Below, in pieces: positions 48,908-64,000 of a DNA stretch of 64,000 nt. The translations under genes were made by a program, and so were the position numbers. The stretch spans positions 558,001 to 622,000 of the forward strand of contig NZ_VAHD01000001.1 in assembly GCF_005876985.1 (NCBI RefSeq), in the 5' to 3' direction. Source of the DNA: Rhodoferax bucti (GTDB lineage Bacteria > Pseudomonadota > Gammaproteobacteria > Burkholderiales > Burkholderiaceae_C). The notes under the pieces were generated by a model. That model did no database searches, was not told the DNA's origin, and saw nothing but the letters and a program-made list of their open reading frames with translations. The first letter of the stretch is position 1; each line of letters starts with the position of its first letter.

Positions 48908-50431
48908 CTGCTCAACCTGGCGCAACCGCACGTCCACGATAGACGCTTCAATGTGATCTGCAGCCTGAGCTGCGTTGCGGGCGATGTCTTGCGCCGCCTT
49001 CAATCGTGTGATGGCGGACGCGTAGTCAAGCTGCGACACATTCACCTCCGCTTCGGCTCGCACTGCGGCCACCGTGCGGCCTTGGGCGGTACGCGCCAAA
49101 GCCAGTTGCTGCCATGCTGCGGCATCCAGCGGTCGCTCTGACACCCATAGCTGTAGCGCATCTGCAGCCTGCCCCGCTTGCCCTGTGGCCAGCAATGCGG
49201 ACGCCCACACCAAGAGCGCAGCGCGTGTGCGCGGCGGGGTAGACACAGCGCCCCACAGCGACAGTGCCAGCGCGGGCTGGCCCATGGCCATATGCATTTC
49301 GGCGTGGAGGTAGAGCCACTGCGCACCAGCTTGGGGGTCACTTGCCACCAATGACTTCAAGGCAGCGGCATACGCCTGCGCTTTGTCAAATTCCCGCAGC
49401 TTCGTGGCGGCCAGAGCGGCTCCATACAAAGCGGCTGCGCGCTGAAACGGGGCGAGCTTTTCCAGCCGTATCGGATCGGCTTCCGCATACCAAGACCGAA
49501 GTCCGTCGACGGAGGCGTTCGACAAAAGACGGGCGCGAGCGGCCACCATGGCGTGCTCCATGTTGCCACTGTCTGGTGCCTTGCTTGCTTCAGGGATGCG
49601 GGACTTCATGTCGGCAATCCGCTCCGTGGTGAGCGGGTGGCTGCGCAAATAAGGGAAGTTACCGGAATCGTTGCTGCGGTTGGCCTGCTGCAGTTTCTCG
49701 AACATGCTCACAAACCCCGATGGGGCGAAGCCGGCTTGACCCGCAACCCCCAAGCCGATACGGTCCGCCTCCCGCTCCATGTCGCGGGAGAAGTTGAGCT
49801 GGGCTTGAGCGGCTGCCGCTTGCCCGCCCACGATCACGGCGTTCGCTCCGCCCGGGTTCTTGCTGGCAGCCATAGCACCCAAAATCATCGCACCGACCAA
49901 CCACGGCGCTTGCTCACTTTGCCGGCTGATGAGCCGTGCAATATGGCGCTGGGTCACATGGCTGAGCTCGTGGGCCAGCACCGAAGCCAATTCGTCTTTG
50001 CTGGACACCGCACCGATTAAACCGAGATGAATTCCAAAGTAGCCCCCCGGCAGGGCAAAGGCATTAATCGTCCTGTCTTTGCCTTGGAGTAACTGCCATG
50101 CAAACGCAGCGTCTAACTCGGGAGAGATTTCTGAACGTTGGCGGGCGGAAGCCATTAAGGGCTGCCAGATGCTTTGCAGGTAATCGGCGATGACTAGGTC
50201 GTCTAGATAGTCCGGATCGCGATAGAGGCCCTGGGCTGTGCGGTCGCCCAGGTGGCGCTCGAAATGAGTGGGAATATCAACTCCCCCGATCGGCAGTTCG
50301 TTCGCCATAACCATGGTGCAACCTAACACGCTGCATAACAGAATATGAATTATTGAAAAAAGTCCAATATTCCGTCTACCAACAGAAAAATAATCAACGA
50401 ACTTTATCATCTCCAGTTGAAAAAGAATCAT
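48878..50431 (-). CDS. M48 family metalloprotease with TPR region (BepA-like)
   Basis: A periplasmic zinc protease/chaperone of about 517 residues related to BepA, which aids outer-membrane protein assembly. An N-terminal signal segment (FSIIHILLCSVLGCTMVMA) precedes the catalytic domain with HELSH at about residue 167 and the third ligand in DMEREADRIGLGVAG; Ala-rich TPR-like helices follow from about 330. The first 40 codons are AT-rich like the upstream ligase gene, while the rest is GC-rich. Start choice (50431 or 50410) is uncertain and overlaps the ligase end. Confidence 0.88.
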   Translation of the reverse strand: MILFQLEMIKFVDYFSVGRRNIGLFSIIHILLCSVLGCTMVMANELPIGGVDIPTHFERHLGDRTAQGLYRDPDYLDDLVIADYLQSIWQPLMASARQRSEISPELDAAFAWQLLQGKDRTINAFALPGGYFGIHLGLIGAVSSKDELASVLAHELSHVTQRHIARLISRQSEQAPWLVGAMILGAMAASKNPGGANAVIVGGQAAAAQAQLNFSRDMEREADRIGLGVAGQAGFAPSGFVSMFEKLQQANRSNDSGNFPYLRSHPLTTERIADMKSRIPEASKAPDSGNMEHAMVAARARLLSNASVDGLRSWYAEADPIRLEKLAPFQRAAALYGAALAATKLREFDKAQAYAAALKSLVASDPQAGAQWLYLHAEMHMAMGQPALALSLWGAVSTPPRTRAALLVWASALLATGQAGQAADALQLWVSERPLDAAAWQQLALARTAQGRTVAAVRAEAEVNVSQLDYASAITRLKAAQDIARNAAQAADHIEASIVDVRLRQVEQLLREQAVER

Positions 50432-52061
50432 AATAACAATTATTACTCCGTCTTGTCGAGCAATATATCTTCATAGTTTCATCGTAGCCATAATAATCAC
50501 CACGTTGAAACTGCGCATTAGCAAGGCGCATCAAAATTTGTCCCGTTGGATTATGGCGAGCCACTTTCTTCAAATCTTTAAAATTATCTTCATCGAGATA
50601 CTCAGACGGATGCATTCTGTATATTTTTGTTACCGAAGAAAGATTTGTCAGTGCATATACGCTTGGTAGATTTCTTGGCGGCTGATTTCCAATTTTCGCC
50701 TCACGATAAGCCAAATCACTCCACTCCGATTCGTATGGAAAATACTCCAAAATCAGAGCCAACACAGCCAGCACGGCAAAGCATCCAATTACAAAGAATG
50801 TTCTGTCTCCGCCTTGAGAAATCAACTTCATACTTGATAAACTCTTATCGGGTTTAGCTCGAAGATAACCCATAAAAAACCCAATTGGAAGTAAAAAATA
50901 GGCATACCTATATGGATACTCAAGCATTGAATGCACAAAGACAACCAAAACCCCCGTCATCAAAATAAAACCCATCTCACTCCGGCCATTTAAAAAAATG
51001 GCCCTCAATTCCCGGCCAAATGAAAATACAAAAAATACCCCCAAAGGCAAACCAAGCCAAATAAACAAATCCAAAAATAGATTGTGAACACTGTTAAAGT
51101 AAGTATATGTCACATACTCACCACCCTTCACATATTCATTTAAAAAAACCACCTGATTCACTCCATACCCCAAAATTGGCGCATCTTTTATTGCTCTCAA
51201 TGCAATATTTATGTAAGCCAATCGTACACGACCACTATCCATTGATGTCAATACATCAACAGACGTGTGAGGATCTCTCATATGGTAGTAATCTATAAAC
51301 TCATAATAAAAAAAATAACCCATCAAAAGTGCAAATGCCATCCGCCCCACCATGGGAAATAACGAGACTCGATGAACCCTGAGATAATACAGCGCCAGCA
51401 CAATGATAGAAAGAAAAACAACAAAGGTTGTTCTAGATCCAGCCGCAGCCAAGCCCACGCTCAGATATATCTGCCCTATCAGCAATAAATATTTATTTAT
51501 TTTTTTATTTTTATATAAAAAATCCAAGGCGACAAGCCCCAAAAACAAGAGACTTGCCAAATGATTCGATTGAGCTAAATTTCCTACTGCCTTAGTCGCG
51601 GCTGGAGTCTCCACAAGCCATACCGAAAAGCGCTGAAGCCCCAGCGTCTGATGCAAGGCGATCCCAACCGACAATAGAGATGCAAACAGAATTCCCAAAA
51701 ACAGAGAATTCAACACCTTATCTTTTATATTTAAATTAACACTCCAACGCGCACGAACCCCCATCATATAAACCAGATAAAATCCCAAAAAATATAACGC
51801 ACATATAATTGCATCACCAAAATAATCAACAATTCCTACGCCATATTGAACAACAGGAAGAGCAGCAAAAAATATTAATATATTTCCAAATGGAACATTA
51901 ATTGCCTCTCCACCCCAATAATATGGCAATATAACAATAAATGCAAACGCAGCAAGCGCTTCTTGATGGAAGCTCAACCAGGGCGCATAGTGATTAGGCA
52001 ACAGATATGATAGAAAAATAGAAGTAGCAAACACTATTAACAGATAATTTTTAACACGCAC
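50394..52061 (-). CDS. O-antigen ligase / PglL-type pilin O-oligosaccharyltransferase
   Basis: A 555-residue inner-membrane protein with about a dozen helices and the Wzy_C/WaaL-type core: AAAGSRTTFVVFLSI near residue 212, GYGVNQVVFLNEY near 305, and the large-loop motif SVHNLFLDLFIWLGLPLG near 335. A C-terminal soluble part follows. PglL enzymes transfer lipid-linked glycans to pilin, and the pilin gene is directly upstream, so pilin is the likely acceptor. GTG 52061 has AGGAGG five bases upstream. The gene is markedly AT-rich against its surroundings. Confidence 0.86.
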   Translation of the reverse strand: MRVKNYLLIVFATSIFLSYLLPNHYAPWLSFHQEALAAFAFIVILPYYWGGEAINVPFGNILIFFAALPVVQYGVGIVDYFGDAIICALYFLGFYLVYMMGVRARWSVNLNIKDKVLNSLFLGILFASLLSVGIALHQTLGLQRFSVWLVETPAATKAVGNLAQSNHLASLLFLGLVALDFLYKNKKINKYLLLIGQIYLSVGLAAAGSRTTFVVFLSIIVLALYYLRVHRVSLFPMVGRMAFALLMGYFFYYEFIDYYHMRDPHTSVDVLTSMDSGRVRLAYINIALRAIKDAPILGYGVNQVVFLNEYVKGGEYVTYTYFNSVHNLFLDLFIWLGLPLGVFFVFSFGRELRAIFLNGRSEMGFILMTGVLVVFVHSMLEYPYRYAYFLLPIGFFMGYLRAKPDKSLSSMKLISQGGDRTFFVIGCFAVLAVLALILEYFPYESEWSDLAYREAKIGNQPPRNLPSVYALTNLSSVTKIYRMHPSEYLDEDNFKDLKKVARHNPTGQILMRLANAQFQRGDYYGYDETMKIYCSTRRSNNCYYDSFSTGDDKVR

Positions 52062-52116: not shown

Positions 52117-52608
52117 TCAACCACGGCAAGAACCAGGAAGGTATTTAGCACTCATAGTTCCGGGACCGCACTTCCACTTGAAGACAGGCTTATTAAATTC
52201 TGTTGCAGCAGTGAAAGTAGTAGTATCGTCTTTATAAGGCGTCATGATGATTGTCTTATCTTTTGCATCACCAAGATCACCAAGGTTTGTTGTACGAATT
52301 GTAATAACCCCAGTGGTAGATGTTTTCAAAGACAACACATATTTAGTCGGTGCAGATGCAGCACTCTCACCAGTATTTTGCTCACACCCCCATGTATCTG
52401 CAGCGGGAAGCCCTGTGCTCGAGTAATTTAAAATTGTCTCAGTAATTGTATTTTTACATGTTGATCCGGCAAGAATAGCCTCGGATACTCGTGCGCGCAC
52501 AGTGTAGTCTTGATAAGCAGGCAACGCCACGGCAGCCAAAATACCAATGATCGCAACAACGATCATCAATTCGATCAGGGTAAAACCCTTTTGAATAGAA
52601 CGCTTCAT
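52117..52608 (-). CDS. pilA: type IV pilin (PilA-like)
   Basis: A 163-residue major-pilin-type protein. The short prepilin leader MKRSIQKG is cut by PilD before [32 protein letters not shown] (given by ends), with the essential Glu at mature position 5. Cysteines near the C-terminus (WKCGPG and GSCRG) form the D-loop disulfide; the body is Ser/Thr-rich, suited to O-glycosylation. ATG 52608 has GGAG seven bases upstream. Preceded by a sigma-54-type promoter and followed by a terminator. Confidence 0.93.
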
Positions 52609-52641
52609 AAATAACTCCAATAAAAAAAGGGTTCAGCAAGA

Positions 52642-52753: not shown

Positions 52754-55174
52754 TCACTTGATACAAACTTGTCGTACCATCTTCAGGTCTGTCATTCCCA
52801 TCAACACCTTCTCCATCCCATCCATTTTCAGCGTACGCATGCCACCCTCTACGGCCGTCGCAAACAGCTCAGCCACGCGCGCGCGCTCTTGAATGAGTTT
52901 TTTGAGCTCGTCGTCAGCCACCATCAGTTCGTGCAAACCGATACGTCCTTTGTATCCCGTCTTATTGCACTTGTCGCAACCCACAGCCTTGTAGAGCCGC
53001 AGCTGCCCCTCCTGCCCATAGTTCTGGGTCCATTGATCGACTAACTTTTGGGATTCAGCGGCGTAGTTGTCTTTCCACGCTTTGGTGCTGCGCAATTCTT
53101 CGGCGTACTCCTTGCAAAACAAACGCAGCTCCTCGGGGGAGGGTACGTATGATTGTTTGCAATCACACAATTTCTTGGCCAAGCGTTGCGCCAGAATTCC
53201 CAGCAAAGCATCTGCAAAATTGAATGGGTCCATGCCCATATCTAGCAACCGGGTAATCGACTCCGGTGCCGAATTGGTGTGCAATGTGGAAAACACCATA
53301 TGTCCTGTAAGGGACGCTTCCACGCCCATGGACACCGTTTCTTTATCGCGCGACTCGCCCACCATGATGATGTCCGGGTCGGCACGCAAGAAAGCTCGCA
53401 TCACGAGCGCAAAGTCAATTCCTGCCTTTTTATTGATTTGAACCTGCCGCAAGCCTTTTTGTGTAATTTCTACAGGATCTTCGGCCGTCCAAATCTTAGT
53501 ATCTGGTGTGTTGAGAAACTTTAATATGGAGTGCAGAGTGGTGGTTTTACCCGAACCGGTAGGCCCACATACATAAAAGAGGCCGTAGGGTCTGCTCACT
53601 GTGGCTTCCAGGCGCGTCTTGTTGTGCTCGGTCAAGCCCAACTTTTCGAGAGGGATAGGCTCGCCGGCAGCCAGTATGCGCATAACTACATCTTCCACCC
53701 CTCCGGCGGATGGAATCGTAGCTACGCGTAATTCAATATCCAGTGGACCATACTTCTTAAATTTAATCTTTCCGTCCTGCGGCTTACGGCGCTCAGATAT
53801 ATCCAGATCGCACATAATCTTCAAGCGTGTGACCATAGCCTGCCTGAAATGCGCAGGCACTTCAACATACGGAACCAAGCTGCCATCAATACGAAAACGA
53901 ATGCCTGTCTTAAACTTCCCTGGCATAGGCTCGATGTGAATATCAGACACTTTTTGGTGATAGGCATCAATAATTACTTTATTGACAAACTTCACCAATT
54001 CATTATCTGCAGCAGCGGACTCCAACGACTCATCATTATTACCGTCATCAATAGGCCCACCATCCATGTCCGCCAGCAACTGATCAATGGTCCCACTGTC
54101 TGCAACAGAACCGAATATCTGCGCTAAGGTTTCATTGAACTCTTGCTGCGTGGTGACCCGATACGCAAACTTGCTGATACGGGGAAACACCTGCGGTACC
54201 ACTCTGGAGCCACGCACGGCTTCCGGATCTGTACACATGATCACCAAACCCTCGGGCGATTCCTCCAGAGGAATCCACTCTTGCTCCTCCAGGAACTCTC
54301 GCTTCAGTGGGCCATGAAGTATTTCGGAGCGAATACGCCCAGAGTTGAAAGGCTCATAGGGCACCCCAAAAAACTGGGACAGGCTAGGCCCGATTTGCCC
54401 TGGCCGCAAACCCGTCCTGCTAATAATCAAGTCCTCCAGCTGAGTACCCTCATCCCTGGATTCTTGTGTTAACTGCTGGAGATCAGATTCCGTCATCAAA
54501 CCAGCATCTACCAGCACATCGTATTTAGTCGCCTTTTTACGAGGCGTATTGTCATGCTGCCTCTGACGGTGGCGTATTGCAGTAGCCAGTGTTTTGCACA
54601 GCTCGTTTACACCGTCCAGCTCCAGCTCACCGAATGGCTCGTCACTTTTGTTATTGATAACTTGGAGCACACCATAGAGCGCCTTTCCCTCCAAAATAGG
54701 CGCCACCATCATTTGCTTGGTGCGATAGCCGGAACGCTTATCGACCTCTTTGAGAAAGTTCAGAGAAGGATGTATTTTTCTCAGCGCTTCATCGTCATAC
54801 ACATCCGACAAATTAAGAGCTGTTTTACTGAATGCCGCATAGCCAGCCAAACTCTGGGGAGAAATTGGAAGCTTGAGCTCCCGGCTAGTATTCAAGCCTG
54901 TTTTAATTTTCGAAACAATAGAAACTCTATCCTCCGCCAACGCGTACAGGGTCAATCGATCAGCATTCAATAACTTGCAAATATCCTGGCTGGTTTCCAG
55001 CATGATTTGCTCGAGGTGTTCGGTATCATGAATTCTGGCGGTGACTTGATGCAGTTGGCGGTAGAAGAGTGCCTCGAATGTCATCCCCCTTTTTTTGATG
55101 GGATGTTTTTGTGATTCAAAAAATGCCTGCTCGCTGATTTTGATTGGCGAATCTTGATTCGTAGGGATACTCAT
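52754..55174 (-). CDS. GspE/PilB-type secretion ATPase with N-terminal GAF domain
   Basis: An 806-residue hexameric motor ATPase of the type II secretion/type IV pilus family. It has a GAF domain (about residues 35-205), a GspE N-terminal domain (220-360) and the ATPase core: Walker A GPTGSGKTTTL near 533, Asp box ADPDIIMVGESRD, His box LTGHMVFSTLHTNSA, and a zinc site from CDC and CDKC near 655 and 740. The GAF carries NK at 175-176 and F181, as in the NKFDE motif of cyclic-nucleotide-binding GAFs, but E-L replaces D-E. Last gene of the signalling operon; overlaps the MBL gene by four bases. Confidence 0.88.
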   Translation of the reverse strand: MSIPTNQDSPIKISEQAFFESQKHPIKKRGMTFEALFYRQLHQVTARIHDTEHLEQIMLETSQDICKLLNADRLTLYALAEDRVSIVSKIKTGLNTSRELKLPISPQSLAGYAAFSKTALNLSDVYDDEALRKIHPSLNFLKEVDKRSGYRTKQMMVAPILEGKALYGVLQVINNKSDEPFGELELDGVNELCKTLATAIRHRQRQHDNTPRKKATKYDVLVDAGLMTESDLQQLTQESRDEGTQLEDLIISRTGLRPGQIGPSLSQFFGVPYEPFNSGRIRSEILHGPLKREFLEEQEWIPLEESPEGLVIMCTDPEAVRGSRVVPQVFPRISKFAYRVTTQQEFNETLAQIFGSVADSGTIDQLLADMDGGPIDDGNNDESLESAAADNELVKFVNKVIIDAYHQKVSDIHIEPMPGKFKTGIRFRIDGSLVPYVEVPAHFRQAMVTRLKIMCDLDISERRKPQDGKIKFKKYGPLDIELRVATIPSAGGVEDVVMRILAAGEPIPLEKLGLTEHNKTRLEATVSRPYGLFYVCGPTGSGKTTTLHSILKFLNTPDTKIWTAEDPVEITQKGLRQVQINKKAGIDFALVMRAFLRADPDIIMVGESRDKETVSMGVEASLTGHMVFSTLHTNSAPESITRLLDMGMDPFNFADALLGILAQRLAKKLCDCKQSYVPSPEELRLFCKEYAEELRSTKAWKDNYAAESQKLVDQWTQNYGQEGQLRLYKAVGCDKCNKTGYKGRIGLHELMVADDELKKLIQERARVAELFATAVEGGMRTLKMDGMEKVLMGMTDLKMVRQVCIK

Positions 55175-55965
55175 AACTCAAACTCCTGCCCAGCACTGAG
55201 CCAACGGATATCGTGTTCACAAGCAGCCCCCGCCATCGTGCTGTGCTCAAACAAAGCAATTTCATTCATGATGAGGTTCGTTTCTGCAGGCTTGGTATGT
55301 GTGATGTAGATGGGGTACAGGTTGGACTGATCAATGTGGCGTAATTCTTGAGCCAACGTCTGCGGTGCGAGGTGTTTGCTCAGCACCGCAAGCTCCGACT
55401 CTCGGTTGCTGAATGCCGTTTCAATCACCAGCATGCCGACCCTCATCTGATTAATACGCGACCAGAGCGCGGGGTTATGGCCCGTATCTCCGGTGAATAC
55501 CCAGTTCACTCCACCTGCAGACGATGCTGCGTAGCCAACTGCAGGCACGGAATGGCTGGCTGGTAAAGCTTCAATCATCAAGTTGCCGATCTCTCTGACC
55601 TCACCAACGCTGAGCGGGGAAAATTGAATGAAGGGATTCTGAACCGTTGGCAGCAACGTGAAATCGGGCCAGATCACATTATTGAAAACATGTGTTTTCA
55701 ATGCGCTCAGTGTCTCAGGCAAAGCGTGCAAAGTCACCGGGGACTTACGCCGGGATGCCACGGCATCCACCATCAGGGGAAGGGCCGCAATATGGTCGAG
55801 GTGGGAATGGGTCAAAAACACATGATCGATTCCCAACATTTCTTCCAATGTCAGATCTCCCACTCCTGTGCCTGCATCGATGAGCATTGCCGCATCAAGC
55901 AGGAAAGAAGTCGTCTTGCAATCCTTAGCAATTGCTCCTGAACAGCCCAGCACGCGTACCTTCAC
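55171..55965 (-). CDS. MBL-fold hydrolase, cyclic-nucleotide phosphodiesterase-like
   Basis: A 264-residue metallo-beta-lactamase-fold protein. THSHLDHIAALPL gives the metal ligands H53, H55, D57 and H58; VFTGDTGHNP supplies the bridging Asp and YITHTKPAE a late His. HxHLDH is shared by class II 3',5'-cyclic-nucleotide phosphodiesterases, though the rest of that signature is only partly met. Related proteins are often annotated so. Placed directly after a nucleotide cyclase gene (15 bases), a cAMP/cGMP-degrading role is likely but inferred. Cytoplasmic, no signal peptide. Confidence 0.8.
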   Translation of the reverse strand: MKVRVLGCSGAIAKDCKTTSFLLDAAMLIDAGTGVGDLTLEEMLGIDHVFLTHSHLDHIAALPLMVDAVASRRKSPVTLHALPETLSALKTHVFNNVIWPDFTLLPTVQNPFIQFSPLSVGEVREIGNLMIEALPASHSVPAVGYAASSAGGVNWVFTGDTGHNPALWSRINQMRVGMLVIETAFSNRESELAVLSKHLAPQTLAQELRHIDQSNLYPIYITHTKPAETNLIMNEIALFEHSTMAGAACEHDIRWLSAGQEFEL

Positions 55966-55980
55966 CTGCTCGTCTCCATC

Positions 55981-58230
55981 TCATTTGGTTTCGAAATTGG
56001 TAGCACCATCCCAATCAGGATCAAACAGCAAATACCGCATGGAGACTACTCTCTCACTGTAAAGGCGGTAAAGGTACTTATGGGCATTTAAACGGGATAT
56101 GTTCAGTAGCGCCACATCCGCCTGATCCCAGTTTTGCGCGCGGTACGCCTTCAGAAATTGGGTCCACAGCTTAATTTCTTCCAGAACCGCACTCTCAGCC
56201 TTTTTCGCAATAGCGAGTGGGCAAAAGATAGTCACGGACTTGTCTTTGCCTTTCACGCGGACCTTGTCCAACTCTTGCCACACAAAGTCATTCGCCATGC
56301 GCCTTGTCTGCTCGCTCGCCACAATATCAACGCCATACACCTTGGATAGAGACTCCAATCGCGCACCCAGATTTACCGTGTCACCAATCACGGTGTAGCT
56401 GCGCCGGATGTCCGAACCCATGTCACCGACACACATGGTTCCTGTGCTGATTCCTATGCCGATTCCTATCACCGGCAACCCCCGTGCTTGATGGTCTTCA
56501 TTGATCTCTCGCACCACCGCCGCGATATCCAAGGCCGTTGATACCGCTAGATGGGCATGGGCAGAAGATTCGATAGGAGCACCCCAGAAGGCCATCACAC
56601 AGTCGCCCATGTATTTGTCGATAGTGCCACGGTGCCCGCGAATCACTGCCGTCAACTTGCTGAACACGCCAGTCAGCATGGCCTGGAGTTGCAAGGGCTC
56701 CATGGTTTCAGACATGTTGGTAAAGCCCCGCATGTCGCAAAACATCACGGTCATCTCGCGGTTCATCGCCTGCATGCTGTAACTGTCCGGGTCTTCGAGC
56801 ATCTCATCCACCAGCTCTGGAGGCACATAGGTCCCGAACAAGTTCGCAAGATCCCGCTTGGAGCGACTTTCTACAAAATAGCCATAGCTCATATTGAGCG
56901 CAAAAGCGGTTACTGTCATCAGCACAGCAGAAGCCAAGGGCAGCACGAGACCGTGACCGAGGTACAGCCACAGATTAAGCAGCGTCAATGCCGACAACAC
57001 CAGCACACTCAGCAGCACCGCTCTGGCCGCGCTCAAAAGCGGCAAACAAATGGCGAGCATCAGGCCCGACACCATCAAAGTCACCACTTCATACCCGATC
57101 GAATAATCGGGTTTGACCAAGATATGCCCATCCAACAGTGCGGAAATGACATTCGCATGCGTTTCCACGCCGGGATAGGTTTCCCCCACGGGCGTAACGC
57201 GCATATCAAAGAGCCCCAACGCGGTTGTACCCAGCAAAACTATCTTGTTTTTTAGCTCGCCGGGAGGAACTTGCTTGTTCAGAATATCTACCGCAGACCA
57301 ATATTTGAATGAGCCGCCCTGCGAATTGCCTCGCCCCCGATAAGGAATAAGCGCAGTACCACGGCCATCCACCGGGATGTCCAGTGCTTTATCGCCTTGA
57401 ACTAGCGATAGCTTATTTAGAGCCTGATCGTCGCGCGATAGATAGGCTTCTGCTGAAAACTGCGGCACTATTTTTGGCAAGCCAACAACGGCCCGGAATA
57501 TCGCCAAGGAAAGCGACTCGTAATAGTCGTCCTTGTATTGCGCTATCAACGGTATGGAGCGCACCACACCATCTGAATCCGTCACCGAATTGAAGTGCCC
57601 CGCCAAGGGCGCAGCACGCGCGAATTGCTCCAAATTCGAGCCATAGGCCGACCACTCCGGCGCAGGCAGTTGTCGGCCCTCAAGATCACTTGCACCAAAC
57701 ACGGGGAGGGGCAACTGGCCACTCGCACGGCCCTGCGCATCGTTAGTGAAGAAATACCCTAAAACAACGGCCTTGTCTTTGAGAGCCGCAGCAAAACTTG
57801 CGTCGTAATCCAAACGGGGCTTGAGTTGTTGGAGCTTGTCTGTAAAAGACGGCTGGTCTTTCAACTCGTTACCTGCCAACGCCATGAGTTGTTGAAGCCC
57901 CGAACTGTTATCAGGCTCAGCAAAGACGACGTCCACGCCCAGCAACGCGATGTGCTGATTCTGAAACAAGGCGGTTACCAATTCTGCGAGCTTGTTCCGT
58001 CCCCACGGCCAGCGGCCGATCTCCGCCAAACTCTTTTCATCAATATCAACGATGACGATCCGCTCATCCATGGTTTGCGGCATGGTGGCGCGCAGACGAG
58101 CGTCGTAAATGATGTCATCAAGCCGCTGTAGTACGCCCAAGGGAAGAGCACCAGTGGCGTGCAGCAGTGCAAATACCAGCGGTATCAGGGTGACCGCAAT
58201 ACGGGGCCAATGTCGTTTAATGGCCTTCAC
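55981..58230 (-). CDS. CHASE2-domain class III adenylate/guanylate cyclase
   Basis: A 749-residue membrane cyclase. One N-terminal helix leads to an extracytoplasmic CHASE2 sensor (about residues 30-340, VDIDEKSLAEIGRWPWGR, VVLLGTTALGLFD), then three helices (about 360-445) and a class III catalytic domain. MFCDMRGFTNMSE and KYMGDCVMAFWGAP provide the metal Asp pair and a base-specifying Lys; IGDTVNLGARLE supplies Asp/Thr and the transition-state Arg. These suggest adenylate cyclase, but specificity needs an assay. Sits between the FHA and MBL genes with gaps of 20 and 15 bases. Confidence 0.93.
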   Translation of the reverse strand: MKAIKRHWPRIAVTLIPLVFALLHATGALPLGVLQRLDDIIYDARLRATMPQTMDERIVIVDIDEKSLAEIGRWPWGRNKLAELVTALFQNQHIALLGVDVVFAEPDNSSGLQQLMALAGNELKDQPSFTDKLQQLKPRLDYDASFAAALKDKAVVLGYFFTNDAQGRASGQLPLPVFGASDLEGRQLPAPEWSAYGSNLEQFARAAPLAGHFNSVTDSDGVVRSIPLIAQYKDDYYESLSLAIFRAVVGLPKIVPQFSAEAYLSRDDQALNKLSLVQGDKALDIPVDGRGTALIPYRGRGNSQGGSFKYWSAVDILNKQVPPGELKNKIVLLGTTALGLFDMRVTPVGETYPGVETHANVISALLDGHILVKPDYSIGYEVVTLMVSGLMLAICLPLLSAARAVLLSVLVLSALTLLNLWLYLGHGLVLPLASAVLMTVTAFALNMSYGYFVESRSKRDLANLFGTYVPPELVDEMLEDPDSYSMQAMNREMTVMFCDMRGFTNMSETMEPLQLQAMLTGVFSKLTAVIRGHRGTIDKYMGDCVMAFWGAPIESSAHAHLAVSTALDIAAVVREINEDHQARGLPVIGIGIGISTGTMCVGDMGSDIRRSYTVIGDTVNLGARLESLSKVYGVDIVASEQTRRMANDFVWQELDKVRVKGKDKSVTIFCPLAIAKKAESAVLEEIKLWTQFLKAYRAQNWDQADVALLNISRLNAHKYLYRLYSERVVSMRYLLFDPDWDGATNFETK

Positions 58231-58250
58231 TGGGGCTCAGAAAAACGGGC

Positions 58251-58919
58251 TCAGCTTTGCACAAACTGCATTTGAGTTCCGGCCAACTCTACCAAGTCAC
58301 CATTTTTCAGCGGAATCGGGTCTGAACCGATAGGTGCGCCATTCACGGTCGGATTGCCCGCACCCTCGACGTGATGCACTACAAACCCGTGTTGTCGTCG
58401 CGTGATCGCAGCAACTGCGACGCCGGGCTTCCCGATAGTGGTGACCACTTTGGTCAGTGGAACCTCACGTCCGGAGGCAGCCCCTGAGAGTACTTTGATC
58501 GCAGCGTGGAATGCACCCAACCCCTGCGAATCGCCCGCGCTGGCCGCAAATCCGGAATTAGCCGCTTGCGGCGGAGCAGCAAATGCCGGGCGTGCCTGCA
58601 CGATCATGGTTTTATCGAAATTTTCCACCACACCATCAGCAACAAACTTGATTTTGTACTTGCCAATTTCAATGCCGTCGCCATGCTTGAGCTGCTGCTT
58701 TTTCACAGCTTTCCCGTTCACATACGTGCCATTGGTGCTGTTCAGGTCTTCCAAGAACACATCGGAGCCTGCCATCAAAATCACGGCATGCTCTCCACTT
58801 ACTGCCAGGTTATCAATAACGATATCGTTGTAAGGCCTGCGTCCCAAGGTGGTTCTGTCCTTGGTGAGTTGGACTTCTTTGATCACGACCTCATCGATCG
58901 AAACGATCATCTTCGGCAT
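58251..58919 (-). CDS. two-FHA-domain phosphothreonine-binding protein
   Basis: A 222-residue cytoplasmic adaptor. The first FHA domain (about residues 15-95) has all recognition residues: GRR near 27, SGEH near 41 and NSTNGTYVNG near 60. After a linker containing FDKTMIV, a Thr placed like the kinase sites of GarA/OdhI-type proteins, a second FHA-like domain (about 135-220) has TIGKPG, RRQHG and NPTVNG, so its pocket looks degraded. It lies between the phosphatase and cyclase genes and is the natural reader of the kinase's phosphothreonines. Confidence 0.9.
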   Translation of the reverse strand: MPKMIVSIDEVVIKEVQLTKDRTTLGRRPYNDIVIDNLAVSGEHAVILMAGSDVFLEDLNSTNGTYVNGKAVKKQQLKHGDGIEIGKYKIKFVADGVVENFDKTMIVQARPAFAAPPQAANSGFAASAGDSQGLGAFHAAIKVLSGAASGREVPLTKVVTTIGKPGVAVAAITRRQHGFVVHHVEGAGNPTVNGAPIGSDPIPLKNGDLVELAGTQMQFVQS

Positions 58920-58964
58920 GATCGACTCCTTTTCCTGTAGTTGGTTCTGGAAAACACTTGTAAT

Positions 58965-59750
58965 TTACTTCCCTAGCAGCCTGGCAAAAATGCCTTTTTT
59001 TTCTGCTGCTTCGCTCACAGCAACCATCAGTACAGAAATATTGTCTTTTCCGCCATTATTGTTGGCAGCCATAACAAGGCTCTCTGCAATCTGGCCTAGC
59101 CCTGAGCCCTCGGCTACGATTCTAGCGATTACTTCGTCTTGGACCATATCGGACAAGCCGTCTGAGCACATTAGATACACATCTCCCGGCTGTACCTGAT
59201 ACTCGTTGACCTCCAACATGACCGATGGCTCGACCCCCAATGCGCGGGTCACCAAATTCTTGATGGGCGAGACCGCCGCTTGCTCCAGCGTGATCATTCC
59301 TGCGTCGATTTGCTCTTGGAGCAGTGAGTGGTCTTTGGTGACCTGCTGCATCACGCCGTCACGAATGCGGTAGCAGCGTGAGTCACCGATGTGCCCCACC
59401 GTCACCTGGCCGCCCCGGAATACAGCCAATACAAGCGTCGTCCCCATTCCGGCATAAGCGGCATTGGCATTTGCAGAATTAAAGATGGCGAGATTCGCGT
59501 TGTCTACGCAAATCTCCATGGCCCGACGAATCTCTTTGGGTTGCGCCACAGGGCCAGCCTCTACAAGCCAGCGGCTCAACTCTGACTTGATGAATGCCGT
59601 GGCCATGCCGCTGGCAATTTCACCCGCGTTGTATCCGCCCATGCCATCCGCCAACACCGCAACCATCGCCTCTTCGTCGAATGCGACCGAATCCTCGTTG
59701 TTATCTCTGGCGCGGCCAGCGTCCGTGATGGCGTGAAATTGGTAGTTCAT
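58965..59750 (-). CDS. PP2C-family serine/threonine phosphatase (Stp-type)
   Basis: A 261-residue soluble PPM phosphatase that should reverse phosphorylation by the adjacent kinase. Metal-binding motifs are intact: DNNEDSV near residue 17, VLADGMGGYNAGE near 35, VGHIGDSRCYRI near 120, MCSDGLSDMV near 195 and DNISVLM near 237. It begins with the standard MNYQFHAITDAGRARDNNED. It is 24 bases downstream of the kinase gene and 45 upstream of the FHA gene. Confidence 0.95.
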   Translation of the reverse strand: MNYQFHAITDAGRARDNNEDSVAFDEEAMVAVLADGMGGYNAGEIASGMATAFIKSELSRWLVEAGPVAQPKEIRRAMEICVDNANLAIFNSANANAAYAGMGTTLVLAVFRGGQVTVGHIGDSRCYRIRDGVMQQVTKDHSLLQEQIDAGMITLEQAAVSPIKNLVTRALGVEPSVMLEVNEYQVQPGDVYLMCSDGLSDMVQDEVIARIVAEGSGLGQIAESLVMAANNNGGKDNISVLMVAVSEAAEKKGIFARLLGK

Positions 59751-59774
59751 TTTTATGGGTTGTATGAGGCCGCT

Positions 59775-62411
59775 TTATTGCGGACCGGCAGAGGACGCCT
59801 CGGACCGCTGCTGTGCAATCGTCTGAGCAAAGGCTTGAGAATCCTGCTTGCCATCTGAGTTCGATGGCTCAGCCGCGGCCACTGTGCCAGCGACCGCCAC
59901 GGGCTGGTCAATAGGAATGCCTGCCAGCAGTTCCGCTGAAAAATCGCTGCCAGACTGATAGCGTGCAGAAGGCTGCTTACTCAGTGCTTTGCCGACTACG
60001 TACGCAATGTGTGGACTCAACTGGGGTTGGTGCTCCCGTATACCCGCCGCATCTTCATTAGCTATTTTGTACATCAGCTCAGCCATAGACTCTCCACGGA
60101 AAGGCAATACCCCCGTGAGTAACTGGTACAGCATCACGCCCAGGGAATACAAGTCAGAGCGACCATCCACCTTTTTGCCCGCCAGCTGCTCCGGGGACAT
60201 GAAACTGGGGGTACCCAAAACCAACCCGGTTTTAGTTTTACTGCTGTCAGTAATGCGGGCAATACCAAAGTCTGTCACCTTCACCGTATCGGTAGCCTGC
60301 TCGTACATCACATTGGCTGGCTTGATGTCTCTGTGCACCACTTGCTGGCGATGCGCATAGTCCAACGCGAGGGCCACGCGGCTAACAATACTGATCACTA
60401 CCGGTGCCGGCAACAAGTGGCCGGGCTTGGTGTGCTCTGCCAGATCTCGCCCCTTCAGAAACTCCATGGCGATGTAAGCCAGGTCATGCTCCTCACCCGC
60501 ATCAAATATCGTCACGATATTCTGGTGCTGCAACCGGCCCGCTGTCTCGGCCTCTCGGAAAAAACGCTCGCGCGCATCCACCAGCTCGTCGCCCGCAAAC
60601 TCTGCGCTCAACGCCATGGTTTTGATGGCCACAACGCGTCCGATTTTGGGGTCTCTCCCTTGGTACACCACACCCATGGCGCCCTTACCCAGCTCTTTTT
60701 CGACTTGGTATCGACCCAGCATGGGCTTCTCCACCGGCCCACCATCCAGCAACAAGGTGCCACCCGGGTGCGCGGAGGAGCCCAATATGACCGTTTCGGA
60801 AAGCTGCTTGGCACGACCCAACTTGACTTTCACATCCTTGTACGACGGATCAATACTCGCCACGTGCTCGTACACCGATTGGGCTTTATTGAATTGCCGC
60901 TTGCGCTCAAAGTCTTGTGCGAGCCCATACAAATTACCCAGCAGAGCGTCGCTGGGCGCCACACGGCGAAAACGGTCAAAGGCCATATCCAACTGGCCTT
61001 GACCCTGCAACGCCAGCCCCATCATGCGATTGGTCTCTGCCGATTCTTCGTCAGACTTCACCTTACCCGCCTCCGTCATCAGAAAGCGCTTGGTAGTCAG
61101 TCCCACATGCCCGGTCAGCAGCACCAAGGCAGGCAACACAAGCTTTACCCACATGCCTGCGGCCGACAAAAGCCCGTACTCTGCGAGCACAGCGCTTACC
61201 AGCAAAACTGCAGTGCCCAGTGCTCCGGCACCGGCAGATAGGCGTGGCAGCAACCACGCCACATAGCCGCCCACCAAGAGCAGTGCCCCCAAGCTCACCC
61301 ACAACCCCCACGAAGGCTGCACAATGAAATGCTCGCTCAAGATACTAGAGGTGATGTGGGCCACTGTTTCGGCAGGAGACAAGCCCGGATGCCCCGGCAC
61401 CGGAAATTGATTGCCTACGCCAGCGGCAGTCGCGCCCACGATGACGATCTTGTCCGCATACTTGCTAGCCGGTATTTTTCCGCTCACTACGTCGTAGAAA
61501 GAGTCCACCTGGAAAGCGGCGCGCCCATCCCTGTCGCGGTAAAACTGGGGAAGCATCAGCCCTGAGGTCTCCGTCTTGATCTTCAGACGACCAATTTGTA
61601 CCGAATCTCCCGCATTCAAACGAATATCAGCGGGGCCCAGGTTCAAGCTGGTCATCGCAGCCAGCAAGGCCATGGAAGGTACCGCTTTACCGTAGTAGTT
61701 CACCAAAAGGGGCTCAACGCGCACCGCACCGTCCACATCCAACAATTGATTCAGATGCCCGACTCCGGCAGCCTCTTTACCCAGTAACTCAATCGGCATT
61801 TGCCCCCGTGAAGACGCTAGGGCAAACCCGGAAGGATCATTGATCGCGTGCTTCGCAACAAAGGCGGGCAAAGGGCTGTCTGACTTGCCCTGCGGCTCGC
61901 CCAACGTAAACACGGCAGGAATCAACACATTGTTGGCCGCGCGCAAGCTGGCAGCCAACACAGCATCTGTATCTAGCGCCGTTTCGGCCTCCGACAAGGT
62001 GGCCGCCATGGCCTGCACACCAGGGGTTGACTCATCCAAAGCGCTTACTTGGTCTTTGAGCTTCCGGATGTAGACCAAACCAGGATCGATCTGAGGCTCC
62101 AGGAAAAAAACCGTTTGCACCACAGTCTTCGCCTTTGCCTGGGCGAGTAGGTCAATCAACTGGGCTTGGTAGCTGCGCGGCCACGGCCAACGCCCCAGAT
62201 TGGCGATGCTCTGGTCATCAATGGCGATAACGGCAATACGGTCCGACGGTTGTCGGTTGGCAGAGCTGCTCCCCACATCGTAAAACCGGCGCTCCAAGGT
62301 ACCGGCAAAGTCTGTGGTGGTGTACACCACCAGAGAAGCAAGGACCAGCACGATGCCCGTGAACCAGTCCGCCCTCCAAAAACCTGCTTTTTTTGTTTGC
62401 TTTCCAGTCAC
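59775..62411 (-). CDS. CHASE2-domain serine/threonine protein kinase
   Basis: An 878-residue membrane kinase, first gene of the operon. After one helix (about residues 15-32) comes an extracytoplasmic CHASE2 sensor (about 40-345, with IAVIAIDDQSIANLGRWPWP), three helices (about 350-430), a TPR-like stretch (about 455-540), and a Hanks-type kinase domain (567-830). G-loop LGKGAMGVVYQG, Lys in VVAIK, HRDIKPANVM near 690, DFGIAR and GTPSFMSPEQLAG are all intact. A Ser/Gln-rich tail may be autophosphorylated. It shares its sensor type with the cyclase four genes on. Confidence 0.94.
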   Translation of the reverse strand: MTGKQTKKAGFWRADWFTGIVLVLASLVVYTTTDFAGTLERRFYDVGSSSANRQPSDRIAVIAIDDQSIANLGRWPWPRSYQAQLIDLLAQAKAKTVVQTVFFLEPQIDPGLVYIRKLKDQVSALDESTPGVQAMAATLSEAETALDTDAVLAASLRAANNVLIPAVFTLGEPQGKSDSPLPAFVAKHAINDPSGFALASSRGQMPIELLGKEAAGVGHLNQLLDVDGAVRVEPLLVNYYGKAVPSMALLAAMTSLNLGPADIRLNAGDSVQIGRLKIKTETSGLMLPQFYRDRDGRAAFQVDSFYDVVSGKIPASKYADKIVIVGATAAGVGNQFPVPGHPGLSPAETVAHITSSILSEHFIVQPSWGLWVSLGALLLVGGYVAWLLPRLSAGAGALGTAVLLVSAVLAEYGLLSAAGMWVKLVLPALVLLTGHVGLTTKRFLMTEAGKVKSDEESAETNRMMGLALQGQGQLDMAFDRFRRVAPSDALLGNLYGLAQDFERKRQFNKAQSVYEHVASIDPSYKDVKVKLGRAKQLSETVILGSSAHPGGTLLLDGGPVEKPMLGRYQVEKELGKGAMGVVYQGRDPKIGRVVAIKTMALSAEFAGDELVDARERFFREAETAGRLQHQNIVTIFDAGEEHDLAYIAMEFLKGRDLAEHTKPGHLLPAPVVISIVSRVALALDYAHRQQVVHRDIKPANVMYEQATDTVKVTDFGIARITDSSKTKTGLVLGTPSFMSPEQLAGKKVDGRSDLYSLGVMLYQLLTGVLPFRGESMAELMYKIANEDAAGIREHQPQLSPHIAYVVGKALSKQPSARYQSGSDFSAELLAGIPIDQPVAVAGTVAAAEPSNSDGKQDSQAFAQTIAQQRSEASSAGPQ

Positions 62412-62586: not shown

Positions 62587-63270
62587 TTATGCGGTCTCAG
62601 GAGCATGGCTCCGGTTCAAGCCTTTGCCCACACCGAGCACGAGGCATGCGCCCACCGCAGCAGCAGCCCAATGCAGCCAGTGGTGTGACTCCACGACCGA
62701 CTTCAGCGCGGTGTCGCTCGCAATGGTTTCGCCGGCGACCCAACCAATCAGCGCAGCCCCCAAAGTCACAATGACCGGGAAGCGCTCCATCAAGCGGATC
62801 ATCAGGGTGCTACCAAAAATCACCAAGGGAATACTGATTGCCAAGCCAAGAACCAATAGCACCATGCTGCCTTGTGCTGCAGCAGCCACCGCAATCACGT
62901 TGTCCAAACTCATGACCAAATCAGCAATCAAAATGGTACGTACCGCCACCATCAGGCCACCTTTGGCACCATCCGCATGGTCGTCCCCATCGCTGTCGGT
63001 CAGCAACTGAACGCCAATCCACAACAGCAAGATTCCACCCACAATTTGCAGGAAAGAAATCTGCATCAGCTTGGCCGCCACCACGGTCAGTGCAATCCGC
63101 AGCACCACTGCGGCCCCGGAGCCGAAAAGCACCGCCTTTTTCTGCTGCTCTACCGGCAAAGAACGGGCTGCCAACGCGATGACCACCGCGTTATCACCCG
63201 ACAAAATGATGTTGATCCAAACGATCTTGATCAGACCGATCCAGAAGTCTGCGTGTTGCAGCAAGTCCAT
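62587..63270 (-). CDS. TerC family integral membrane protein, second copy
   Basis: A 227-residue TerC protein with about seven helices and the metal motifs IILSGDNAVVIALAAR near residue 22 and DLVMSLDNVIAVAAAAQ near 118. It resembles the YjbE-type branch and may handle manganese. Unlike the TerC gene at 47810 it has no yybP-ykoY leader; tandem hairpins separate it from sucD. About 175 bases without a recognisable element lie between it and the kinase gene and must include the operon's promoter. Confidence 0.9.
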   Translation of the reverse strand: MDLLQHADFWIGLIKIVWINIILSGDNAVVIALAARSLPVEQQKKAVLFGSGAAVVLRIALTVVAAKLMQISFLQIVGGILLLWIGVQLLTDSDGDDHADGAKGGLMVAVRTILIADLVMSLDNVIAVAAAAQGSMVLLVLGLAISIPLVIFGSTLMIRLMERFPVIVTLGAALIGWVAGETIASDTALKSVVESHHWLHWAAAAVGACLVLGVGKGLNRSHAPETA

Positions 63271-63370: not shown

Positions 63371-64000
63371 TTAGAGCAAAGCCTTCAGTAGCTTCGCCAT
63401 CTCGGAGGGGTTGCGGGTCACTTTGAAACCGCACTCTTCCATCACCGCCAGCTTGGCGTCAGCCGTATCAGCACCGCCGGAAATCAAGGCGCCAGCGTGG
63501 CCCATGCGCTTTCCAGGAGGGGCTGTCACGCCGGCAATGAAACCGACCACAGGCTTTTTCATGTTCAGCTTGCACCAGCGAGCAGCTTCAGCTTCGTCGG
63601 GTCCGCCGATTTCACCGATCATGATCACCGCATCTGTATCGGGATCTTCGTTGAACGCTTGCATCACATCGATGTGCTTCAAACCGTTGATCGGGTCGCC
63701 ACCGATACCGACCGCAGAAGACTGGCCCAGACCGATTTCGGTAAGTTGCGCCACGGCTTCGTATGTCAGCGTACCGGAGCGGGACACCACGCCGATACGG
63801 CCCTTGCGGTGGATGTGACCGGGCATGATGCCGATCTTGATTTCGTCAGGCGTGATCAAACCGGGGCAGTTGGGGCCCAACAGCAAGGTCTTCTTGCCCC
63901 CGGCAGCTTCCTTGGCCTTCATCTTGTTGCGCACTTCCAGCATGTCCTTGACGGGGATGCCTTCAGTAATGCAAATCGCCAAATCCAAGTCCGCTTCTAC
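63371..64000 (-). CDS. sucD: succinyl-CoA synthetase alpha subunit (3' part only)
   Basis: The C-terminal 209 residues of SucD, the ADP-forming succinate-CoA ligase alpha subunit of the TCA cycle; the N-terminal CoA-binding part lies beyond the window edge. Visible features are the GPNCPGLITPDE loop, the SRSGTLTYEAVAQLTE helix, VGIGGDPINGL, and the phosphohistidine region KRMGHAGALISGG near the end. sucC would be expected further upstream on this strand. Confidence 0.96.
   Translation of the reverse strand, partial: VEADLDLAICITEGIPVKDMLEVRNKMKAKEAAGGKKTLLLGPNCPGLITPDEIKIGIMPGHIHRKGRIGVVSRSGTLTYEAVAQLTEIGLGQSSAVGIGGDPINGLKHIDVMQAFNEDPDTDAVIMIGEIGGPDEAEAARWCKLNMKKPVVGFIAGVTAPPGKRMGHAGALISGGADTADAKLAVMEECGFKVTRNPSEMAKLLKALL

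Follow-up and report, generated by a model that had tools for sequence, protein, structure and literature searches.

Second messengers are described as reaching type IV pilus motors by two routes, with cyclic AMP (cAMP) acting through transcription and cyclic diguanylate (c-di-GMP) acting directly on the motor. This is the picture given by a 2024 review of PilB control (PMC11656802), which covers c-di-GMP, cAMP via Vfr, FimX/PilZ, CpiA and TfpB, and whose main text, in the portions available to us, mentions neither GAF nor FHA. Here we analyse a six-gene operon of Rhodoferax bucti (assembly GCF_005876985.1) that lies in a stretch of 64,000 nucleotides, hereafter the window (contig NZ_VAHD01000001.1, positions 558,001–622,000, forward strand), and encodes a kinase (KIN), a phosphatase (PPP), an FHA protein (FHA), a nucleotide cyclase (CYC), a protein of the metallo-beta-lactamase fold (MBL) and a motor ATPase with an N-terminal GAF domain (ATP).

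Several described systems share parts with this operon; what we say of cited papers refers, here and below, to the portions of each text available to us. The PpkA–PppA–Fha pathway controls type VI secretion by threonine phosphorylation and, like the operon, clusters a Hanks kinase, a PP2C phosphatase and an FHA protein that govern an envelope machine. The operon differs in its CHASE2 sensor, in its machine, which is probably a type IV pilus, and in its FHA protein, which at 43.8 against a cut-off of 120.25 does not qualify as the TagH-type FHA of the type VI threonine phosphorylation module. The Pseudomonas Chp–CyaB–Vfr system too ties an adenylyl cyclase to type IV pili, but it acts transcriptionally via Vfr (PMC11656802). 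An operon there that includes a class II phosphodiesterase or a GAF motor is not known to us. In Sulfolobus, ArnA, ArnB, ArnC, ArnD and PP2A, which comprise Hanks kinases, a phosphatase and an FHA protein, control a filament of the pilus family (PMC5300886), and the ArnA FHA structure 5a8i matches a predicted model of the window FHA protein (Z 13.3); however, that system belongs to an archaeon, acts on archaellin expression and includes no cyclic nucleotide branch in the source as available. MshE and related MshEN motors (PMC11656802, PMC10519070) likewise bear an N-terminal second-messenger domain on a T2SSE-family ATPase, whereas the orthologues of the window motor lack the c-di-GMP half-motif and place a CyaB2-like GAF in front. 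In Acinetobacter baylyi one pilus has two extension motors, canonical PilB and the PilB-like but phylogenetically distinct TfpB (PMC8213720); the main text of that paper, as far as available, contains no GAF, the window ATPase scores below the TfpB cut-off, and the R. bucti genome has a separate TfpB. Finally, Anabaena CyaB2 fuses a cAMP-binding GAF to the effector that it regulates (PMC4411481), but there tandem GAFs sit on an adenylyl cyclase, and here a single GAF sits on a pilus-type motor.

The explanation towards which we lean is that of a pilus-control operon, in which an accessory, cAMP-reading pilus motor is governed by a phosphothreonine module together with a pair of adenylyl cyclase and phosphodiesterase. 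That the system is real, conserved and, within its family, linked to a pilus we consider very probable. Titles and opening lines of abstracts in the literature searched yielded no case in which cAMP controls a pilus assembly ATPase directly. The six-gene set is not described in that literature either (PMC10519070, PMC5300886 and PMC6755745 included), which is weak evidence of novelty given that subscription papers and preprints lay mostly outside the search. The parts are known, and the wiring of the operon seems undescribed.

A six-gene operon that recurs in relatives

Six open reading frames (ORFs) lie on the minus strand of the window (Table 1), with successive gaps of 24, 45, 20, 15 and -4 bases, and their products score above the Pfam gathering thresholds for CHASE2 and Pkinase, PP2C, FHA, CHASE2 and Guanylate_cyc, PDEase_II/Lactamase_B, and GAF, MshEN and T2SSE, respectively. 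An earlier note on this DNA had read genes, strand, gaps and domains in this way, and ORF calls and Pfam bear it out; its gene list is right but one gene short, as a type IV pilin follows on the same strand, and after it a Wzy/PglL-like gene. The note also stated that every catalytic motif looked intact. In alignments that include the window sequence and exclude rows below about 85–90% of the query length, the kinase residues K597, D695 and D714 are kept in 60/60 rows and the seven metal ligands of MBL in 96/96. The cyclase residues D499, K539, D543, T613, N620 and R624, comprising two metal-binding Asp, a Lys/Thr pair and Asn/Arg, are present in 73/73 rows. Walker A and B, the His box and four cysteines, by which ATP belongs to the type II/IV secretion ATPase (T2SSE) superfamily, are found in all 78 motor rows. 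The GDSR, SDGL and GG-DN stretches of PPP and the GRRPYN, SGEH and STNGT stretches of the FHA protein are conserved in relatives as well.

The earlier note had named a gene order not conserved in relatives as one ground for refutation, and this ground falls away. In 20 neighbourhoods anchored on the ATPase the usual order is sucD, terC, KIN, PPP, FHA, CYC, MBL, ATP, pilin. With MBL as the anchor, the 80 top-scoring loci among at least 428 matches in named genomes come from entries titled Polaromonas, Rhodoferax, Ramlibacter, Hydrogenophaga, Acidovorax, Curvibacter and Caenimonas, genera of the Comamonadaceae, together with many unresolved Burkholderiales and one metagenome-assembled genome titled Pseudotabrizicola. 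All six genes stand in order in 25 of the 53 complete loci of this set, and in 5 (L196, L197, L200, L201 and L207) of 20 loci from other families, which were hand-picked among MBL matches and are not a random sample. Since the order recurs in named relatives and in other families, with the same overlap of MBL and ATP in most loci, it is not due to chance. The set is thus a conserved unit, as had been claimed, but the idea that it is indivisible fails: the remaining loci hold reduced versions. In the ATPase-anchored set these run from PPP-FHA-MBL-ATP (L053), PPP-FHA-ATP (L045, L048) and FHA-CYC-ATP (L061) to ATP alone (L057).

It is conceivable that the signalling genes sit between sucD-terC and pilA by inheritance, without a joint function, and sucD, terC and the pilin do adjoin one another in reduced loci too. 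We rate this ordinary synteny as very improbable: the MBL and ATP genes overlap by exactly 4 bases in 53/61 loci (a count from gap lists that precede the reciprocal kinase/cyclase check), the arrangement recurs in about 30 families, CYC and ATP co-occur, and active sites are intact in the aligned rows. The reciprocal check showed what looked like dead cyclases in five loci to be kinases misassigned via the common CHASE2 domain.

Within the 53 complete loci, PPP and FHA are each present in all, MBL likewise by choice of anchor, CYC in 44, KIN in 40 and ATP in 29; a KIN in L083, an ATP in L082 and a CYC in L151 that tblastn can see were dropped at the ORF step. Sampling one genome per genus in the family (120 genomes) gave FHA in 105, MBL in 89, a CYC-like match in 58, some of them paralogues near 30% identity, and KIN in 31, six of which match the kinase part only; an ATPase match (E up to 1e-100) occurs in 77, about 24 of which have the full GAF form. 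Such figures could speak for a phosphothreonine-only system, in which a KIN-PPP-FHA core acts on the pilus in the way that PpkA-PppA-Fha acts in type VI secretion, and in which the ATPase and the genes for cyclic nucleotides are optional and separate. The prevalence of PPP and FHA fits this, as do L172 and L174, which hold PPP, FHA and a pilin without matches to MBL, CYC, KIN or ATP. Nevertheless, KIN is often absent where PPP and FHA stay, and in the 20 outer loci the MBL-ATP pair (15) is found more often than PPP-FHA (11), so that MBL and the motor stand alone too (KIN and an in-line CYC each occur in 7). We regard a phosphothreonine-only system as quite unlikely.

The association of cyclase, MBL and GAF motor, which speaks for the cAMP-reading pilus operon, extends across the order. 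In a sample of 250 Burkholderiales genomes MBL occurs in at least 147 and the ATPase (E up to 1e-175) in 105, with 103 matches, from 30 families, extending into the GAF. At least 88 of the 103 GAF-ATPases have a same-strand MBL within 5 kb upstream, and at least 72 have it within 512 bases. CYC was found in 98 genomes, in 70 of which it immediately precedes MBL (gap 0–212), and CYC, MBL and ATP stand in line in 51/103. The cyclase is present in 74/103 genomes with a GAF-ATPase versus 24/147 without (odds ratio 13, kinship ignored), and an eye count over 51 families gives an ATPase/cyclase co-occurrence of 26/4/7/14 (p 2e-4, kinship again ignored). Within the 53 complete loci, presence of kinase and ATPase and of cyclase and ATPase is weakly associated (p 0.06 each), and presence of kinase and cyclase is not (p 0.2). 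In G199:C10, G249:C109 and G320:C72 the cyclase lies immediately 5' of the GAF motor with no space for an MBL.

Signs of decay are seen in L061, L151, L082 and G003:C1:3523406-3524186, in the form of a cyclase that is interrupted by an in-frame stop or was not called as a single ORF, an ATPase match without a clean ORF, or an MBL in two pieces. L169 and L181 (G013:C2) form a split locus, with MBL and pilins about 90 kb from sucD-terC-kinase-PPP-FHA.

Table 1. Features of the six-gene operon and its surroundings in the window
Feature	Position	Strand	Description
KIN	59775..62411	-	878 aa; CHASE2 62339-61266 (161.5 bits), Hanks Ser/Thr kinase 60710-59958 (Pkinase 183.3 bits), Pfam
KIN TPR-like stretch			judged by eye
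PPP	58965..59750	-	261 aa; PP2C-type, Stp1/IreP family; NCBIfam NF033484 249.1 bits (cut-off 230)
FHA	58251..58919	-	222 aa; N-terminal FHA domain 58853-58662 (Pfam 87.1 bits)
CYC	55981..58230	-	749 aa; CHASE2 58164-57064 (192.6 bits), class III nucleotide cyclase 56760-56227 (Guanylate_cyc 90 bits)
MBL	55171..55965	-	264 aa; class II cyclic-nucleotide phosphodiesterase-like; PDEase_II 57.2 bits (cut-off 23.7)
ATP	52754..55174	-	806 aa; GAF 55042-54560 (44 bits), degenerate MshEN 54541-54107 (31.1 bits), T2SSE/PilB-like ATPase 54010-52775 (378.9 bits)
Type IV pilin	52117..52620 (ATG at 52608)	-	Pfam Pilin 49.9 bits, N_methyl 38.8 bits
Wzy/PglL-like membrane O-oligosaccharyltransferase	50394..52061	-	Pfam Wzy_C 51.7, Wzy_C_2 44.8, PglL_A 27.3 bits
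Membrane protein, presumably TerC-like	62587..63270	-	frequent neighbour, upstream in many relatives
Landmark gene, presumably sucD, succinyl-CoA synthetase alpha	63371..63988	-	truncated at window end; 91-97% identical and in the same position in ATPase-anchored relatives except L057

The sucD landmark is also present in most MBL-anchored named loci that reach that far, and in outer-family loci. The Wzy/PglL-like neighbour may perhaps serve in glycosylation of the pilin.

Predicted cyclic-nucleotide enzymes and a GAF-bearing motor

In class III cyclases a Lys/Thr purine pair denotes ATP as the substrate, and on its residues CYC is predicted to be a class III adenylyl cyclase. MBL, for its part, has the marks of a PDEase_II enzyme, namely a Pfam score above the cut-off (in a match that spans only model positions 83–178 of 340), HxHxDH and a full metal site. 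Its profile finds yeast PDE1 as the top match in the PDB (4ojv, E 1.1e-11), and 4ojv and 4ojx share FN-IWPD with it beyond HxHxDH; the NCBIfam model for cyclic nucleotide-degrading phosphodiesterases, NF041851, gives 34.2 bits, below its cut-off of 400. Both the Lys/Thr pair and the likeness of MBL to class II cyclic-nucleotide phosphodiesterases support the earlier note, which had proposed a cyclic-nucleotide output.

The window ATPase falls short of the models for PilB (TIGR02538, 468.6 bits against a cut-off of 675.65), TfpB (NF053534, 387.6 against 850) and GspE (TIGR02533, 431.3 against 630.25). In a tree of ATPases, 13 GAF motors group together (97/100), and the other motors stand on long branches. 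The c-di-GMP half-motif of MshEN, tested as the RLGxx(L/I/V)xxxG type taken from PMC10519070, occurs in 0/78 motor orthologues, even though Pfam MshEN scores 31.1 against a cut-off of 23.1. Mean majority conservation over 63 rows is 0.89 in the ATPase domain, 0.81 in the GAF, 0.76 in MshEN and 0.66 in the linker.

Searched as a single sequence against the PDB, the GAF has Anabaena CyaB2 (1ykd) as its top match at E 1.6e-22, with the runner-up at 2e-7; a profile search widens this to 2.5e-31 versus 8.5e-13, and 18 of the 28 other sequences in it, counted by eye, are GAFs of cyclic-nucleotide phosphodiesterases. The cAMP contacts of CyaB2 GAFb include R291, T293, I308, D356, N359 and Thr309, the last through its backbone (PMC4411481), and mapping by chain index plus 57 places them at window residues R73, T75, I90, D145, S148 and K91. 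Among 78 rows, R73 and T75 are each kept in 77 and D145 in 78; V or I stands at position 90 in 70 rows and S or T at position 148 in all, and K91, in place of Thr309, is kept in 76. In sequence, then, the domain is nearest to GAFs that bind cyclic nucleoside monophosphates (cNMPs) and keeps key purine contacts, and we predict that the GAF motor binds cAMP. That the motor is gated directly by cAMP is our best reading of the parts, and one that we hold with modest confidence.

A number of observations weigh against this reading. By fold the GAF is not especially close to those that bind cyclic nucleotides: 1ykd ranks tenth with Foldseek and 38th with VIA-align (Z 14.6; first 18.4), behind the GAFs of the HD-GYP protein 4mcw, a dual-sensor kinase and PtsP, and 4mcw also has a DKR-GYRT stretch. 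The NKFDE motif is kept in part, with N174 and F181 invariant, K176 in 52/78 rows and acidic positions that vary. The contacts persist in L194, L199, L203 and L210, whose genomes have no CYC at E 1e-130. A called ATPase is absent from 24/53 complete loci, and in 9/53 MBL is retained without a called CYC; the notion of MBL as a partner of this cyclase only is accordingly not supported. Lastly, the genome encodes 10 CRP-type cNMP-binding proteins, which are alternative possible targets of cAMP.

These proteins are the basis of an alternative in which cAMP made by the operon works via CRP/Vfr-type transcription factors, the GAF of the motor binding another ligand or just dimerising. Control of type IV pili by cAMP through Chp–CyaB–Vfr is a described precedent (PMC11656802), a GAF fold by itself does not reveal the ligand, and the persistence of the contacts without CYC points the same way. 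Against this stand the sequence of the GAF, nearest to cAMP-binding GAFs with the purine contacts kept, and the phosphodiesterase-like gene, which overlaps the motor gene or sits just ahead of it. We judge action through transcription factors to be unlikely, though the strongest of the alternatives to a cAMP-gated motor.

The pilin link and the other motors of the genome

In the genome (3.67 Mb) only the pilin downstream of the operon matches PF00114; pilin-like genes without such a match occur elsewhere (e.g. L063, L065). Of the 76 family loci with enough sequence for the check, 62 show a pilin signature on the same strand no more than 2.5 kb past the last operon gene, versus 5/380 background windows. 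The figures are 37/47 for loci with the ATPase and 25/29 for those without a called ATPase, the latter including L052, where tblastn sees one. Because the genome's only PF00114 pilin directly follows the operon, the target is likely a type IV pilus. The earlier note had left the choice between a pilus and a type II motor, and its pilus half stands within the family; type II secretion as the output is disfavoured, with a separate gspE above its cut-off and the pilin downstream of the operon.

The genome has its own PilB (808.9 bits, above the cut-off), accompanied by a PilC-like gene (L063), its own GspE (657.9 bits, above the cut-off), which lies in a type II-like cluster (L064), an MshE-like motor that bears a canonical MshEN half-motif (L065), and its own TfpB (908.7 bits against 850; C2:443678-444829, L066:7043-8857), the names of the neighbours being our own reading. 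With these four elsewhere in the genome, the window ATPase brings the assembly-type motors to five. Three PilT-type matches are also found. Another group of PilB-like ATPases is seen in relatives (L176 and L178, of 822 and 871 aa, with similar frames also in L179 and L180); ahead of MshEN they have an N-terminal stretch of more than 200 residues in which no Pfam model scores above its cut-off.

Outside the family the pilin link weakens, and this too counts against a pilus-control operon: only 3/15 motor loci (L197, L199 and L201) have a pilin signature on the same strand less than 2.5 kb from the motor, and in these the pilin follows a GAF-HD-GYP gene. A same-strand protein of about 530–570 aa comes next after the motor in 12 of the 15 outer motor loci (for example L196:14388-15980, L195:4254-5954 and L201:13693-15324). 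It has GAF and HD_5/HD domains above cut-off in 8/8 cases scanned and HHERMDG-GYP, the mark of HD-GYP c-di-GMP phosphodiesterases, in 11/11 read; it lies directly after MBL in L212 and on the other strand in L204. No match to this gene at 1e-20 was found in the window or the family loci read, the remaining genome not having been searched. Given a predicted HD-GYP phosphodiesterase beside outer motors, c-di-GMP may matter too.

A model of the operon and what it would mean

In the model that we favour, the CHASE2 kinase would sense an extracytoplasmic cue and phosphorylate threonines, the PP2C protein would undo this, and the FHA protein would bind phosphothreonine and thereby recruit or release pilus components. 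The CHASE2 cyclase, with an envelope cue of its own, would make cAMP, which the MBL protein would hydrolyse. cAMP would bind the GAF of the accessory PilB-like motor, in which the MshEN motif for c-di-GMP is missing, and switch the activity of the motor, so that assembly of the adjacent pilin would follow the cAMP signal. Activation as the direction of control is a guess, and the FHA protein may act on the motor.

The earlier note had a single envelope signal driving both branches, a view that our results do not support: kinase and cyclase share 29% identity in their CHASE2 domains (391 residues compared), and the presence of the two enzymes is not associated. These two domains resemble one another more than they resemble the genome's two further CHASE2 proteins, so that they may stem from an old duplication. 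The further proteins lie at C1:844285-845268 (L003) and C2:632263-633231 (L004), in frames of 573 and 495 aa.

That the phosphothreonine branch acts on the same machine is plausible by its position and, to our mind, a little better than an even guess; position alone connects FHA with the motor, a further point against the model. The predicted model of the FHA protein (m59484739a416, mean pLDDT (predicted local distance difference test) 78.4) matches the FHA domains of OdhI, GarA and FhaA over residues 1–96 (Z 16–17), and the second, C-terminal beta domain of the protein looks in its sequence like a degenerate FHA. Near the isolated ATPase of G063, but on the other strand, there is a further FHA paralogue (37%; L057:17802-18422), and second FHA copies occur in other genomes too.

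More tentatively, and with somewhat less than even confidence, we suggest an old cAMP-gated pilus motor of Burkholderiales, with its own synthesis and degradation of cAMP and a phosphothreonine relay, in which cAMP sensing by the GAF replaced c-di-GMP sensing by MshEN. The HD-GYP gene of the outer version would then let the operon lower c-di-GMP as cAMP rises. If true, this would help to explain why one genome keeps several assembly ATPases, and it would give a function to a phosphodiesterase-like family that occurs in at least 147 of the 250 Burkholderiales genomes sampled. MBL and the GAF motor would, moreover, offer a two-gene system for direct tests of the gating of motors by second messengers.

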